A stretch of DNA of 64,000 nucleotides, taken from NCBI GenBank assembly GCA_016933835.1, contig JAFGAC010000206.1, forward strand, positions 1-64,000. The letters run 5' to 3'. The DNA comes from Clostridiales bacterium (GTDB lineage: Bacteria > Bacillota > Clostridia > Peptostreptococcales > Acidaminobacteraceae). How positions within the stretch are numbered: the stretch's first letter is position 1; every line of letters starts with the position of its first letter. The translations under genes and the position numbers were made by a program. Under the pieces are notes generated by a model, which saw nothing but the letters and a program-made list of their open reading frames with translations, had not been told where the DNA came from and made no database searches. Below, in pieces: positions 46,316-53,317 of the stretch.

Positions 46316-46346
46316 GCGTACCTTATCAAAATAGGTACGCTTTTTT
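46316..46346. terminator. Bidirectional terminator between rpsT and holA
   Basis: GCGTACCT (46316-46323) and AGGTACGC (46333-46340) are perfectly paired and followed rightwards by six T residues; leftwards a T-run follows after five bases (GCACTGTTTTTT). The holA stop is inside it. Confidence 0.88.
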
Positions 46347-47358
46347 ATTTGCTCATTGTCAAATTTATAAACAAACTCTCCACATGTGCCCTTTTATTTA
46401 CCCCTTCACTTTTGGAAATGATTTCATAATCAATGCACTTCCCCAACGCCTCCATCAAATAACCGCGACTCATTTTCGAAGTTCTCTTCAATATTAATTT
46501 AACCGGATATGAAGATTTAAAAGCAAGAATTTCTTGAATGCTATCAAGAGGATGCCCTTTTAGATGAAGTATTTTTGCCAACAGCATATTGTGATATTGT
46601 TTAGTCATAAGTGGTAGAATTTCATAAGAATTATGACCTTTTTTCATTAATTCATCCAACTTTTGCATACTCATTTGAATATTTCCTTCTACAAGATAAT
46701 CTGTCAACGCAAAAATATTCATTTCTAACGGCATTACCATGATTTCTTTTAAATGTTCTATCTCTATAAACTCATATGGCAATGATGTAATTTTTTTAAT
46801 CTCATTCTCCATTTGATAAAGACTTATTGTTTGATTTCTATCATTGTACATTGAATAATTGATAAAAAAATCAAGAGACTGATTGGATATTTTTTTGCCG
46901 TATTCATTAAATTTTTTCACAACCCATTTTTTAAAATCGTTTTCGCTTAGTTTTTCAAACTCAACAATTTCAATTTTTTTCTTTTTAAAAAGCTTATATG
47001 CCTTTGACATTTTATTATTAAAAGTAAAAATATTAACGCATCCAATTGCGTGGTGACTTACTTCAATAAGTTTTTCAATTTGTTCATCAGATAAATTCAT
47101 TTGATCCAAATTTTCAATTACTTGTATTTTATGTTCACTCATCACTGGTAATGTTAAAATACCATTTACAATTTGATCATAATTAGAACTAATGCCATCA
47201 TAGTAGCCAAAATTGAATACATAAAGTTCTGGATTCAAGTAATCAGATTTTATACGCTCAATTGTATGATCATAAAGATACGCTTCGCGATTAATCATAA
47301 CGTACAAGCTTTCCAATGATCTTGTTTTAGATTTTTTAATCACTTCAAGATAATTCAT
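46345..47358 (-). CDS. holA: DNA polymerase III delta subunit
   Basis: A 337-residue clamp-loader subunit that opens the sliding clamp. The layout is typical: N-terminal AAA-like domain with YVMINREAYLYDHTIERI, the middle LMKKGHNSYEILPLMTKQYHNML and the final helical collar. It follows comEC by ten bases; AGGAG lies only two bases from the ATG. The order comEC-holA-rpsT is common in Firmicutes. Confidence 0.9.
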   Translation of the reverse strand: MNYLEVIKKSKTRSLESLYVMINREAYLYDHTIERIKSDYLNPELYVFNFGYYDGISSNYDQIVNGILTLPVMSEHKIQVIENLDQMNLSDEQIEKLIEVSHHAIGCVNIFTFNNKMSKAYKLFKKKKIEIVEFEKLSENDFKKWVVKKFNEYGKKISNQSLDFFINYSMYNDRNQTISLYQMENEIKKITSLPYEFIEIEHLKEIMVMPLEMNIFALTDYLVEGNIQMSMQKLDELMKKGHNSYEILPLMTKQYHNMLLAKILHLKGHPLDSIQEILAFKSSYPVKLILKRTSKMSRGYLMEALGKCIDYEIISKSEGVNKRAHVESLFINLTMSK

Positions 47359-47368
47359 TTCATTTCTC

Positions 47369-49465
47369 CTAAAAAAATTTATATAATAAACGGTCGTCTT
47401 TAATTTTAATCATGATTGTTCCAACTTTATCAGTTCTTAAAACTTTCCCAGAATATCTTTCCAGTCTTTCGATTGCCTCTAAATGAGGGTGTCCATATTG
47501 ATTGTTTTCCCCAACCGATACCACAGATATAGCAGGGTTTATTTTTTTTAGAAACTCTTCTGACGATGATGTTTTGGATCCATGGTGAGATACTTTAAGC
47601 AATGTCATATTTTTTACTTGTAAATTCTTTTCAATATCAGAGGAAATATCCCCTGTAGTTAAAAGATCAATTCCATTGTATTTAATCCACAAAACTTGCG
47701 ATAAATCATTTTCATCTTTTACCAATGATGAATTTTCAGGACTTAATACTTTAATGTCAATGTTTTTAAAATCAATCAAATCATTTTTTATTAATTCTAC
47801 TTTATGATTATATACTAATTTCATGTCTTTTAAAACTGAATCATCATTAATAAACAAACATTCAATAGAGATTTGCTGCAAGTATTTAAGGCCTCCATAA
47901 TGGTCTAAATGACCATGGCTGATAAAAGCCGCAGACAGTGACTTTACTCCTAGTACATCCAAATAGTTTTTTACATCAATATATGACCCTGCATCAATGA
48001 GTATTTTTTCTTTGTGATCATTAATTAGCAAGCTATCCCCATTACCTACATCGAAAAAGAAGATACCTTCTTCAAAATATCGATAAGTCATGCTGTTGAC
48101 AAAAAATAGAAAAGCCACTGAAAATACAGCCATCCAGTATTTCATATTCAAAAAACAATTATACAATTCTTCATTTTCCTTGATTATAAAATAAATGAAA
48201 AAAACAAAATAATAAGCGGCTAAAATAGGAGTATTCCAATAAAACAGTTTAATATTCAGAAAAGTATAATTCGATAGCCAATCGAGAACAGATATAATCG
48301 ATTCATACCCTATCTGCACAAATCGATTCAGTAGATCAATATTTAAAGGCAGTATAGCCACAAGTGCTGTCATTGGTAATAATCCACTCATGACAGCAAT
48401 AATTAAAATATTTAGAGGTATTGTCAAAATATTAAAACTCACGTCCATAGTCATTAATATAGGAAATATTCCAATATAAACTTTTAAAATCTGCATCCAA
48501 CTTTCATCCTGAGCTAATGAAAATGCAGCAATGAAGCTTAATTGATAGCTGATTGAAACACTGTAATAGGGATTATAAATCAAAAACAAGATATTTAAAA
48601 CAGCCAACGCTGACATACTGTCATATTTCTCATTTGAAACAATACTCAGCTCTTTCAACAATCTTTGCCCTACTGCTCTCAATATTGAAACATGGTAGCC
48701 CGATAGAAAAGTAAGACTCAGTAAAATTATCAATACTATAGTTTTTCTAATAAAGTAAAATATTCTAATACGCATAAGTAAACTGTCAATACTTTGAGCA
48801 ATAATTGAGACATGAAGACCTGAAACAACTAGCAAGTGCGATAATCCAAACAATGTAAAAATATTTTTAGTGTTTTTATCCAAAGTCTCCTTAATACCAA
48901 AAAACATTGTAAAAATAAGATTGCCTGAATCTCCAAATTTTCTTATAAGTCTATCACGCAAATTTGTTAAAATCTTATATTTTAAAGTCGGACCATTTGA
49001 TTCAATCAATTCAAATTTCTCAATATCCAAAGTAAAGAAAATATTTTTAGCAGCCAAATAAGCACCTGTGTTGAATACAGCCATTTGTGGCTTTCGCTCA
49101 ATTTTTTCTACTCTTCCAAAAACTGATATTTCATCACCATCATTTATTGGTTCAACATACTCATCGATTAATAGTTTTCGATTTGTACCCTCTACAATAA
49201 AATAAAATGTTTCATTGTCCTTCAAGTCAACTGAAATGACAGTCCCTTCTAAAAATTGTTCACCTTCAGTGAAAGAAATTTTATAAAATGAAGAAAGCAT
49301 CATTAAAATCATAATGACAACAATAATAAAAATAGGCACCTGAGACTTATAAAAAAGTATCAAAGTACCTATTGTCAGGTAAAGAAAAATATAATAATGC
49401 TCTCGTACGAAGGCGAGTGCCAACACATAAAAAATCATACTCAATATCATTAATTGTCTTCTCAT
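47369..49465 (-). CDS. comEC: ComEC/Rec2 family DNA uptake channel protein
   Basis: A 698-residue membrane protein forming the channel for single-stranded DNA uptake in transformation. Several N-terminal helices and an OB-like loop (about 70-125) precede the competence domain with LSHLLVVSGLHVS (208-220), many helices to about 460, then a metallo-beta-lactamase-like domain with FDVGNGDS (471-478) and HGHLDH (517-522). It is full length, so natural competence is conceivable, although other com genes are not in the window. The ribosome binding site is weak. Confidence 0.93.
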   Translation of the reverse strand: MRRQLMILSMIFYVLALAFVREHYYIFLYLTIGTLILFYKSQVPIFIIVVIMILMMLSSFYKISFTEGEQFLEGTVISVDLKDNETFYFIVEGTNRKLLIDEYVEPINDGDEISVFGRVEKIERKPQMAVFNTGAYLAAKNIFFTLDIEKFELIESNGPTLKYKILTNLRDRLIRKFGDSGNLIFTMFFGIKETLDKNTKNIFTLFGLSHLLVVSGLHVSIIAQSIDSLLMRIRIFYFIRKTIVLIILLSLTFLSGYHVSILRAVGQRLLKELSIVSNEKYDSMSALAVLNILFLIYNPYYSVSISYQLSFIAAFSLAQDESWMQILKVYIGIFPILMTMDVSFNILTIPLNILIIAVMSGLLPMTALVAILPLNIDLLNRFVQIGYESIISVLDWLSNYTFLNIKLFYWNTPILAAYYFVFFIYFIIKENEELYNCFLNMKYWMAVFSVAFLFFVNSMTYRYFEEGIFFFDVGNGDSLLINDHKEKILIDAGSYIDVKNYLDVLGVKSLSAAFISHGHLDHYGGLKYLQQISIECLFINDDSVLKDMKLVYNHKVELIKNDLIDFKNIDIKVLSPENSSLVKDENDLSQVLWIKYNGIDLLTTGDISSDIEKNLQVKNMTLLKVSHHGSKTSSSEEFLKKINPAISVVSVGENNQYGHPHLEAIERLERYSGKVLRTDKVGTIMIKIKDDRLLYKFF

Positions 49466-49513: not shown

Positions 49514-50050
49514 TTATTCCTTACTGTTCATAATTTTTTTATACGTAATTCCTGTTTTTTCTAAAGCTAAAAGTACCGGTAAAGCCAATACACCTCCGCC
49601 TATACCTTGAATTATATTTGGTACCACACCAAGAAGCGAAGCCTTATAACCATACAATGCAGATTCAAAAATATAATAGCCTCCTACCATGATTATTGTT
49701 CCGGCTACTACTGATATTGCAAAATAAAAAGTTTTTAAAGACAATTTTTCAACATTCTTTGATAGTGCGCGATAAATCAATCCCACGGCTAGAGCATCCA
49801 ATCCTTTAATCATAAATGTCGGAATTGCATAAATTAAATATCCTGAAAAGAAATCTGCTAAAAATGATCCAAATGCAGCAGCTAAAAATCCAAAAACATT
49901 CCCCAACAAAATTCCTGAAAGATACACTAATGTATCACCGATATGTATGTAACCTTTCGTTGGTGTAGGTACTTGAATGACCATTGTTCCAACTGTTACC
50001 ATAGCTGTGAATAAACTTGCCAATATCCATTTTTTTATATTTTTATTCAT
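49514..50050 (-). CDS. ECF transporter S component
   Basis: A 178-residue membrane protein that would bind a vitamin or precursor and use a shared ECF energising module encoded elsewhere. It has six hydrophobic segments; the pattern TPTKGYIHIGDTLVYLSGILLG and YAIPTFMIKGLDALAVGLIYR matches the PF07155-type S components. The frame is open six codons further, but GGGAGG sits eight bases before the ATG at 50050. No riboswitch precedes it, so the substrate (riboflavin, thiamine precursor, pyridoxine, etc.) is not indicated. Confidence 0.8.
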   Translation of the reverse strand: MNKNIKKWILASLFTAMVTVGTMVIQVPTPTKGYIHIGDTLVYLSGILLGNVFGFLAAAFGSFLADFFSGYLIYAIPTFMIKGLDALAVGLIYRALSKNVEKLSLKTFYFAISVVAGTIIMVGGYYIFESALYGYKASLLGVVPNIIQGIGGGVLALPVLLALEKTGITYKKIMNSKE

Positions 50051-50118
50051 AAATTTAACCTCCCACAAATGTATTTTAACATCATCTGTGCCGTAAATTA
50101 ATATAATTTAAATTTTAT

Positions 50119-51909
50119 TTATTGTTCTGTACCCATACAGCTATAAAAATTATCTATAAATTTTATTTCATCCAAAGATAAACTGTACAACTTATAGATC
50201 AAATCATTGATTTTATCAAAATTATTCATATCAGTTTTCACTTTCATTAATTCATCTAAAACATCTAAATCACTATAACTAATAGGAATCCTTTTTAAAG
50301 GGGTACTATAAAGTTCCAACATACTGCCTTTTTTCTTTCCATTATTGTACAACCAGAAATACATTAATTTAGAATTTAATATTGATACAATTATTTCAAG
50401 TTTAAATATCTCCGTTCGTGGCACTATATAATAGACGTCCGCACTCGCATAGAAATCATTTTTAGAAAGTGCAAATTTATTACAATTGCTTCTATGAGGA
50501 ACTACTATTTTAGATGTTTCAAAAATATTTTTATTTCTCGGCCATTGAAGTGCGTACCACTTTCTCAAACCGTTCTGTATTTCTCTTCTTGACAATAAAA
50601 TTTCTTTAAATTGCTTCAAATACTGATATTCTACTGAAGATTCATCTAATTCTGTATACTCATCAATATATAAAATATATTTAATAATGTTTTCTTTTAT
50701 TTGAAAATGTCCAATATCTGAGTTTTTGTAAAACTTTTTCAAATATGGTGAATCCTTCAATTTAAATTCATTGATTTCTTTTTCAGTAAGAACAAATATT
50801 CCTTGTCGTTCATATTCATTTTGAATTTTATATTTTTCTTTCTTCTTTTGATTAAGAAAATCTGCTCCAGATACAATTCCCTGATGTATTTCAAAAAAAT
50901 CACCTAGATTATATGTTCCTTCACTTTTTATCTTTTCAATCAATTCATAATCTTTTTCTGAAGTGTAGACTTGTAAATAACCACTATCAGAAAAAATTTG
51001 TTTTCTTGTAATTTCAAAAGTTTTATTCTGATTATATATCTTCACCAAATTATTTTTTTCATTTTTTAATGAAGTAATTGTAATTACACTATGCTGACCG
51101 ACAGCTTCCTTGAATAATTTCTGGTCATTAAAATTAATGATTTCCAAAATATCAATATTATTTTTAATATATTTTCTTAAATTCACAGCCCCATCAGCAG
51201 TGAAATAATAGCTAGTTGAAATTACTCCCATGATGCCGTCTGGCTTCAATACTTGCCAGCCTTTATATAAAAAATAATAGTAGAAATCCATCTTGCTTTC
51301 ATAATATTTGTTTCCAAAATCATTTTTTTTAATTTCTCTAAAGAAATCCTTATTGTTTTTTTCACCGATATAAGGCGGATTCCCTAAAACAATATCAAAC
51401 CTCTCGTTTATGTTCATTTCAAGTGTATTTCCCAATGTGATATTCAGGCACAAATCAAAGGGAAATATTTCATACATCAGCAATATTCTATTGATGTATA
51501 TCAATAACGCTTCCCACTGCAGTTCATAGGCATAGATACGCTTTAAAAGCGCTGTTCTCTCTTTGTCATCTTGCACTTCGCACTGGTTGATGTATGCAAT
51601 CAACAAATTGCCAGTCCCTGATGAAATATCAGCCACTTTCACTTTTTTCAAGTCGCCTTCATAATTTTCTAATGTTTTCAATACAATTAAATTTGCAACA
51701 TCATGAGGTGTATAAAAACTGCCTGTCAGCAATTTTTCTTCTTTCGAAACCCCTTCATGATGATCAAAATCCATAAAAATATCCAGAAAAATATTCTTTG
51801 ATTTCAACCCAAGATTATACTTTTCTTCTATGTAATTCTCATATGCATCAAAAGATAAATGGAATTTATTCAATACTTCAGAAACTGATTTCATAATTGT
51901 TATTTCCAT
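50119..51909 (-). CDS. Solitary adenine-specific DNA methyltransferase (Eco57I/TaqI-like)
   Basis: A 596-residue N6-adenine DNA methyltransferase. Motif X is GSFYTP (63-68), the SAM motif DISSGTGNLL (94-103), and catalytic motif IV NPPY (177-180). The region after about residue 330 (GDFFEIHQGIVSGADFL and PHRSNCNKFAL) looks like a TaqI-type target-recognition domain. Only about 60 residues precede motif X and no PD-(D/E)XK nuclease is visible, so it is not an obvious type IIG enzyme. No restriction gene is nearby. In architecture it resembles CamA of Clostridioides difficile, an orphan MTase affecting sporulation. Its RBS abuts a terminator hairpin (51923-51948). Confidence 0.88.
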   Translation of the reverse strand: MEITIMKSVSEVLNKFHLSFDAYENYIEEKYNLGLKSKNIFLDIFMDFDHHEGVSKEEKLLTGSFYTPHDVANLIVLKTLENYEGDLKKVKVADISSGTGNLLIAYINQCEVQDDKERTALLKRIYAYELQWEALLIYINRILLMYEIFPFDLCLNITLGNTLEMNINERFDIVLGNPPYIGEKNNKDFFREIKKNDFGNKYYESKMDFYYYFLYKGWQVLKPDGIMGVISTSYYFTADGAVNLRKYIKNNIDILEIINFNDQKLFKEAVGQHSVITITSLKNEKNNLVKIYNQNKTFEITRKQIFSDSGYLQVYTSEKDYELIEKIKSEGTYNLGDFFEIHQGIVSGADFLNQKKKEKYKIQNEYERQGIFVLTEKEINEFKLKDSPYLKKFYKNSDIGHFQIKENIIKYILYIDEYTELDESSVEYQYLKQFKEILLSRREIQNGLRKWYALQWPRNKNIFETSKIVVPHRSNCNKFALSKNDFYASADVYYIVPRTEIFKLEIIVSILNSKLMYFWLYNNGKKKGSMLELYSTPLKRIPISYSDLDVLDELMKVKTDMNNFDKINDLIYKLYSLSLDEIKFIDNFYSCMGTEQ

Positions 51910-51922
51910 TTAAAATACCTCC

Positions 51923-51948
51923 AAAAAAAGTTTGGCTTTAGCCAAACT
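51923..51948 (-). terminator. Intrinsic terminator abutting the methyltransferase RBS
   Basis: Read leftwards, AGTTTGGC (51948-51941) pairs perfectly with GCCAAACT (51936-51929) around TAAA and is followed by seven T residues that run into the GGAGG of the methyltransferase gene. It lies immediately after the stop of the 135-residue gene. Confidence 0.85.
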
Positions 51949-52356
51949 CTATTTTTTTAGGGCATATCTATCTTGCCCAATCTTTTTTACACCAGGTAGT
52001 TGTTGAATAATTTCATCCACTACTAAATCAATATCTCTTATTGCCATATCAATACCTTTTTTCTTAAGATACTTCATGATTGTGATCAAGCGAATATAAT
52101 AATGATTTGGATTTTTAAAAAAAGGATGTCTTAAAATTAGATTTTTTATTTTTTCTTTGTCAACAACTGCTTTTTTCTCAATGATTTCTTCGACTCCATT
52201 AATTAAATCATTGATTTTGATTGATGGATTTTCATGGTTTTCCATAATGTTCTTGATATCATTTATTATATCTTCAACAGTAACGTCACAATTTTCCAAT
52301 GACATATACTCATCTCTATCGTCTTTCTGATCAGGTTTACCCGAAGGTAATTCCAT
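51949..52356 (-). CDS. Unrecognised 135-residue protein upstream of the DNA methyltransferase
   Basis: I do not recognise this protein. Its N-terminus is hydrophilic and acidic (KPDQKDDRDEYMSLENCD). The rest is predicted helical, with IKNLILRHPFFKNPNHYY in the middle and a C-terminal part ending LPGVKKIGQDRYALKK that could be a small winged-helix-like fold. There is no signal peptide or membrane segment. AAAGGAG lies before the ATG. It sits between a second unknown gene (61 bases upstream) and the methyltransferase, with a terminator right after its stop. Confidence 0.65.
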   Translation of the reverse strand: MELPSGKPDQKDDRDEYMSLENCDVTVEDIINDIKNIMENHENPSIKINDLINGVEEIIEKKAVVDKEKIKNLILRHPFFKNPNHYYIRLITIMKYLKKKGIDMAIRDIDLVVDEIIQQLPGVKKIGQDRYALKK

Positions 52357-52417
52357 TTTAAATCTCCTTTCAACTACTTTTTACTTCATCTATTATTTTA
52401 CTATTTTAAGAGCAAAT

Positions 52418-53317
52418 TTACAATAGGTCTTCTACTACTACAACTTGATCTGTTAAATGAATCAAAGTATTTTCAAATAATATTTCAATAATAACTTTCC
52501 CTCGTTCAAGTGCTTCTGCCGTAATAAAATCAAATTCAAGTTTACTTTTCAAATCTATAATTTCTCCTAAAACAACACCATCATCTATTAATTGATAAAT
52601 ACCCTCATCAGCAGCAATTATTCTTATTCCCTCACTACCTTTCAGAACTTTATCAACACTTGAGCGATTTTCTATAATATAAACTGCTTCATAAATATCA
52701 TAATTTTCAACTTCATCAGCTGCATTAACTAATTCATCGACTATATTGGCAAAAGCATAAAGCAGAAATGAATTCCTGTCAATGAATTCATCAATATTCA
52801 AATATCCTATCAGGTCTTTTGATTCGTTGAATTTACCCATTATTCCCTTAATTAAGTGATCTTTATACCCACCATGAAAAACAGTCATCTCATCAACATA
52901 GTAATATTGATTGCCATTTTTATAAATTCTAGCAAAAATAATACCCGTCTCATCTAAAAGTTCATCATTTAAAATAGAATAATCCGATTTATCGAAAATA
53001 TCCTTCAAAATGAATCCACTTGCTGTTTTTACTACTACAAAGTATGAAATCTTTGAATTGTTGAACACATTGTATAAATCTTCATCAATTGAATGATTAG
53101 CTTTATATATATCAATTAAGTTATATTTGTTTTCAAATAAATAATCATGTATAATCCAATCGTTAAATCCATTAACTCCTACAAGATCAGATATCTGACC
53201 TTCTAAAGTAAATATTGTATGAGCCTTTCGAATTTCGTTTTCCAATAAATCAGTTGACAAAAAATTCAAAAGTTTAACTTTTAAATCCAAAATTTTTTCT
53301 ATATTTTCAGTGATCAA
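52418..53317 (-). CDS. Unrecognised 299-residue cytoplasmic protein
   Basis: I cannot assign a family. The protein is acidic and soluble-looking, with no signal or membrane segment. It alternates helices with short strands (YFVVVKTASGFILKDIFD, IIFARIYKNGNQYYYVDEM). A Leu/Ile/Val-rich C-terminus ends DQVVVVEDLL. The start is TTG at 53317 with AGAGGTGG about six bases away; there is no ATG or GTG nearby. It is divergent from alaX over a very short shared promoter region and leads the 135-residue gene and the methyltransferase. Confidence 0.7.
   Translation of the reverse strand: MITENIEKILDLKVKLLNFLSTDLLENEIRKAHTIFTLEGQISDLVGVNGFNDWIIHDYLFENKYNLIDIYKANHSIDEDLYNVFNNSKISYFVVVKTASGFILKDIFDKSDYSILNDELLDETGIIFARIYKNGNQYYYVDEMTVFHGGYKDHLIKGIMGKFNESKDLIGYLNIDEFIDRNSFLLYAFANIVDELVNAADEVENYDIYEAVYIIENRSSVDKVLKGSEGIRIIAADEGIYQLIDDGVVLGEIIDLKSKLEFDFITAEALERGKVIIEILFENTLIHLTDQVVVVEDLL

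Follow-up and report, generated by a model that had tools for sequence, protein, structure and literature searches.

CamA of C. difficile (PDB 7lni and 8cxz) is a gamma-class adenine methyltransferase (MTase) with a TaqI-type target-recognition domain (TRD), which has no restriction partner and is conserved across its own lineage [PMC8187626, PMC13395437]. It promotes sporulation via a methylated site at the spoIIE promoter [PMC13395437], and the residues with which it reads its bases have been listed from the CamA-DNA structure [PMC8187626]. The same catalytic fold and motifs are found in M.BseCI and other Eco57I-type restriction MTases, in which conservation is lower in the TRD than in the catalytic part, and the Eco57I catalytic core is also present in the BREX protein PglX/BrxX, of about 1200 aa.

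Here, we analysed a locus in a stretch of 64,000 nucleotides (hereafter, the window) in which an MTase with the class, TRD type and solitary character of CamA is preceded by two genes, A and B. The trio is rather probably an order-wide, vertically inherited epigenetic MTase module with two dedicated partners, and A and B are previously undescribed as partner genes of an MTase. CamA has been portrayed as a C. difficile enzyme with a role in sporulation; it now stands beside a related, order-wide MTase family that includes organisms lacking Spo0A and retains the DNA-reading residues of CamA. The two uncharacterised partner families may, in turn, offer an entry point to the reading or control of m6A marks in bacteria.

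The methyltransferase and its neighbourhood

The initial annotation placed three genes of the same orientation at 50119-53317, and the open reading frames were confirmed at those coordinates on the minus strand (Table 1). It also named an ECF component, comEC and holA beyond the MTase; these are present in that order, and the housekeeping location is borne out. The ECF transporter S component (ECF-S) gene is a probably co-transcribed neighbour that lies outside the A-B-MTase system. As comEC is carried by 39 of the 41 genomes of the window's family, and thus by most of the trio-free ones too, a role in competence or transformation through comEC was set aside as a positional link only.

Table 1. 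Positions of the genes and signals of the locus in the window
Feature	Position	Strand	Description	Basis
Gene A	52418..53317	-	299 aa, TTG start as listed	ORF list
Gene B	51949..52356	-	135 aa	ORF list
Terminator-like hairpin and T-tract	51923..51949	-	GAGTTTGGC-TAAA-GCCAAACTT	
MTase ribosome-binding site GGAGG	51918..51922	-	Straight after the hairpin T-tract	
MTase	50119..51909	-	596 aa, gamma-class adenine-N6 DNA MTase	Eco57I and TaqI_C
ECF transporter S component	49514..50068	-		Pfam ECF-ribofla_trS, E 1e-34
comEC	47369..49465	-	Conserved neighbour	
holA	46345..47358	-	Conserved neighbour	

The MTase carries motif X (GSFYTP, residues 63-68), motif I (DISSGTG) and NPPY (residues 177-180), matches the Pfam families Eco57I (E 8e-23) and TaqI_C (E 3e-12), and has CamA as its best PDB match (7lni, E 5e-34). 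No nuclease domain was found in the protein, and since merely 62 residues precede motif X, there is no room for one at the N-terminus. The motifs and the missing nuclease domain are therefore as first described, and the description of the enzyme as an orphan also held, given that no restriction gene, whether fused to the MTase or adjacent to it, was recognised at the fetched loci of the window and its relatives. Nor has the catalytic motif been lost in relatives, NPPY being invariant in every aligned MTase sequence. This architecture (Eco57I and TaqI_C domains, NPPY, no nuclease) is that of the CamA group.

Recurrence and inheritance of the trio

Of the 41 genomes of the window's family, 28 have the MTase, 28 have A and 24 have B; each gene occurs as one main copy, and the genes adjoin one another. 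Named carriers include Fusibacter, Acidaminobacter, Maledivibacter, Geosporobacter, Thermotalea, Anaerosolibacter, Marinisporobacter and Anaerophilus, usually with a divergent alaX upstream, then A-B-MTase, followed by ECF-S and/or comEC-holA-rpsT-lepA; in Geosporobacter-type families, other genes sit between B and the MTase. In several families of one order, the block is conserved as a single, co-linear copy; with the three genes repeatedly arranged alike in relatives, it exceeds what chance would give. This comparison of neighbourhoods supports the proposal that the MTase has dedicated partners.

Across 247 genomes of the order, a trio-clade MTase was present in 52 of the 55 genomes with A, and all three genes were present in 38. 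A and the MTase occurred without B in 14 genomes, the MTase alone in 18 and B alone in 5, several of the assemblies behind these partial combinations being incomplete. In family members that lack B, A directly adjoins the MTase. B was not found outside this order among 391 genomes drawn from the class. Lack of the trio within the family goes mostly with a small genome (1.3-2.3 Mb), some of the assemblies concerned being incomplete; several of these genomes retain the comEC-holA-rpsT region, and one has a degenerate A beside comEC.

The main rival to a module with dedicated partners is a housekeeping MTase, similar to Dam or CcrM, which would serve replication, repair or chromosome organisation with A and B as unrelated neighbours. 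We regard it as a possible but distinctly less probable explanation. It is consistent with the genomes that have the MTase without A or B, for instance beside ligA and a gatA-like gene, with the occurrence of B next to comEC-holA where there is no MTase, and with the terminator-like hairpin that parts B from the MTase. However, A is nearly always accompanied by the MTase, the A-B-MTase order survives other rearrangements, and A adjoins the MTase directly where B is missing, all of which argues against unrelated neighbours.

Several other gene arrangements were observed in the dataset. Related MTases without A or B are encoded elsewhere (loci L169-L171 and L166), the one in L169 being flanked by ligA and an Amidase-family (gatA-like) gene, and the one in L166 having a ligA-sized gene upstream. 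In three other families of the order, a gene of approximately 213-251 aa lies divergent from the MTase (L159:8526, L164:7858 and L089:8341), and the end of its product resembles FliD C-termini; it was set aside, being absent from the window's locus. The title of the record for locus L067, 'delta proteobacterium ML8_F1', looks wrong, since the locus is the trio locus of this Clostridia order and the genome set places it within the window's family.

In a tree of 76 MTase sequences, built by a quick method with SH-aLRT support only and no bootstrap, the family labels required 12 changes against a minimum of 11; MTase inheritance therefore appears to be essentially vertical. The CamA clade, formed by Peptostreptococcaceae-type enzymes (a family inferred from the CamA match), and the trio-containing clade were separate, each with 100% SH-aLRT. 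The latter also holds the ligA-linked MTases, and near its base branch a few longer enzymes of type IIG-like character (L162, L214 and L215). Most CamA-type base-contact residues are retained in two of these three type IIG-like enzymes.

Within the trio clade, identity was 0.49 in the TRD and 0.39 in the catalytic domain (ratio 1.26), whereas in other Eco57I-type enzymes it was 0.22 and 0.29, respectively (ratio 0.75). The diversifying TRD expected of type II and IIG systems was thus not seen in the trio clade. Such hyper-conservation is what one would expect if the target sequence matters to the host.

These observations bear on a second rival, also raised in the initial annotation, according to which the trio is a remnant or variant of a restriction or defence system (type II, type IIG or BREX-like) with A and B as effectors. 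The MTase does match the PADLOC type II and IIG models, and its clade includes the type IIG-like relatives near its base. Yet no nuclease domain was found in the enzyme, no restriction gene was recognised at the fetched loci, A and B have no PADLOC match, its chromosomal position is fixed across families, and its TRD is hyper-conserved; moreover, no phage match was found for the MTase and no plasmid match for B, and losses of the trio occur mainly in small genomes. M.BseCI and the Eco57I-type restriction MTases have the catalytic fold and motifs of the window MTase but mostly lack the base-contact residues of the CamA type. Regarding BREX, the MTase is about half the length of PglX/BrxX and scores far under the NCBIfam cut-offs, and no BREX partner genes (BrxC/PglZ) were recognised at the loci. 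The defence reading is, accordingly, very unlikely.

Gene A, gene B and the intergenic hairpin

Searches of A and B against Pfam, NCBIfam, PADLOC and PHROGs returned no significant match, in agreement with the first reading, which could assign neither gene; likewise, PDB profile searches with the alignment of each gave nothing significant. A and B each constitute a new family.

The N-terminal ~190 aa of A share homology with a domain located after the SEC-C zinc motif in the SEC-C/HTH_psq proteins (~350 aa) of Peptostreptococcaceae-type genomes. In contrast with these proteins, A has neither the SEC-C motif nor the HTH_psq end, and its C-terminal half is different. The structure model of A (pLDDT 88) gave no convincing match in a fold search (TM normalised by query <=0.30). 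In Maledivibacter- and Geosporobacter-type families, A is immediately preceded by a conserved gene of 193-204 aa with no assigned family (L070:4860-5441, L089:4973-5569 and L085:5137-5742). It has no significant match to type IIG enzymes and matches the N-terminal region of a type I MTase model weakly (E 0.007-0.008).

The model of B comprises N-terminal helices, with low confidence for residues 1-24, and a winged-helix-like C-terminal domain, with a pLDDT of about 90 in the latter half of the protein. The C-terminal domain contains an invariant basic helix (R89, T92, K95, L97 and K98), which is compatible with DNA binding though no proof of it. The top fold match of this part is the winged helix of the xenogeneic silencer Rok (prob 1.00, rmsd 2.6 over 71 columns), with a weak E-value (0.047) that denotes fold similarity only. 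Rok is a B. subtilis winged-helix protein that binds A/T-rich DNA [PMC6212790]; its N-terminal part is unlike that of B, and the likeness between the two proteins lies in the fold, at the level of structure rather than sequence. B alone, without A or the MTase, was observed near comEC-holA in loci L091, L093, L176, L177 and L193, and, given this occurrence, it may have a function apart from methylation.

Between B and the MTase, a hairpin begins inside the stop codon of B and extends to the ribosome-binding site of the MTase; on the minus strand, its paired segments are followed by a T-tract and then by the GGAGG of the MTase. Hairpins with a T-tract were found 3' of B in 21 of 32 loci, compared with 14% of shuffled sequences, whereas comparable hairpins were found 3' of A in 1 of 29 loci and 3' of the MTase in 6 of 30. 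Among relatives, the hairpin sequence varies while the pairing is retained. The pattern scan flagged the hairpin on the plus strand only, and its reading as a minus-strand terminator is drawn from the local sequence and from the comparison of loci. No Rfam element was found at the locus. Such a layout would uncouple transcription of the MTase from A-B, or attenuate it after A-B, and a separate promoter for the MTase could lie within B.

Relationship to CamA and predicted target

The CamA contacts reported from the CamA-DNA structure were mapped onto 69 sequences of both clades. Seven positions were invariant in all of them (Q346, R425, W439, R441, S472, A473 and Y521 in CamA numbering), and contacts within the TRD were invariant more often (7 of 13) than other TRD columns (19 of 198; Fisher p = 2e-4). 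In the window MTase, these residues correspond to Q343, R442, W456, R458, S489, A490 and Y534, and CamA Q438 corresponds to Q455, so that every one of these eight CamA base readers is present. Within the window's family, 7 of 17 members have T at the Q438 position. Overall, 8 of the 13 TRD contacts of the window MTase are the same as in CamA. Around base pair 5, the contact residues are changed, for the most part conservatively (Y455 to H, K456 to R, S514 to G and I517 to L); in addition, H171 of CamA is replaced by E and I349 by V. The resemblance to CamA suggested by the initial annotation is therefore borne out by the common DNA-contact residues as well as by the best PDB match.

Because the main CamA contacts are invariant and the differences lie near base pair 5, we infer that the target is CAAAAA or a variant of it at position 5. 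This predicted motif is concrete and testable in cultured carriers of the trio.

The shared architecture, the PDB match and the common base readers might indicate that the MTase is a true CamA orthologue that controls sporulation, and relatives bearing Spo0A do have the MTase. This is the least probable of the explanations considered here. Having branched outside the CamA clade, in a separate clade of strong support, the trio MTase is not a CamA orthologue by the tree test; its identity to CamA is 28% (131/466), and its gene neighbourhood, with A and B as partners, differs from that of CamA. It thus has a mechanism related to that of CamA and yet is no member of the CamA clade. Moreover, while CamA acts in sporulation, no Spo0A scored over the NCBIfam cut-off in the window's genome (95% complete) or, counting this genome, in 21 of the 28 MTase carriers of the family. 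In the whole order, Spo0A is missing from 42 genomes that have the MTase, and the MTase from 37 that have Spo0A; this order-wide MTase count takes in the CamA clade as well as the type IIG-like enzymes. As most MTase carriers of the family are without Spo0A, sporulation control is not the general role of this MTase; in the window's genome, such a role is contradicted by the Spo0A search, an indirect test, unless the assembly happens to have missed the gene. Since the trio is kept across the order and many of its carriers have no Spo0A, the job of the MTase is probably an older and more general form of gene control than sporulation.

The preferred reading, a module with dedicated partners, can be extended into a mechanism. 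The solitary adenine-N6 MTase would read a CAAAAA-like, non-palindromic site with the main DNA-contact residues of CamA and would methylate its last adenine. As the site would be non-palindromic, each round of replication would leave one daughter duplex unmethylated until the MTase returns, and this temporary state would permit cell-to-cell variation at target promoters. B probably binds DNA and works with or against methylation at A/T-rich sites, and A probably regulates B or the MTase. The hairpin after B would uncouple A-B from the MTase, the level of which would be set by read-through or by an internal promoter. In a bolder form, the trio would be a three-part epigenetic switch, older than sporulation and independent of it, in which a CAAAAA-type MTase acts together with B, a dedicated winged-helix DNA-binding protein sensing or competing with methylation, and with A as a regulator, the wider MTase family having also given rise to CamA; we put this forward tentatively.

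Orthologues of CamA itself, with 56-64% identity (89% in L174), were observed in several other genera of the family to which L174 belongs (loci L172-L175 and L194-L213). Given these orthologues in other genera, CamA seems to extend further beyond C. difficile than published accounts indicate.
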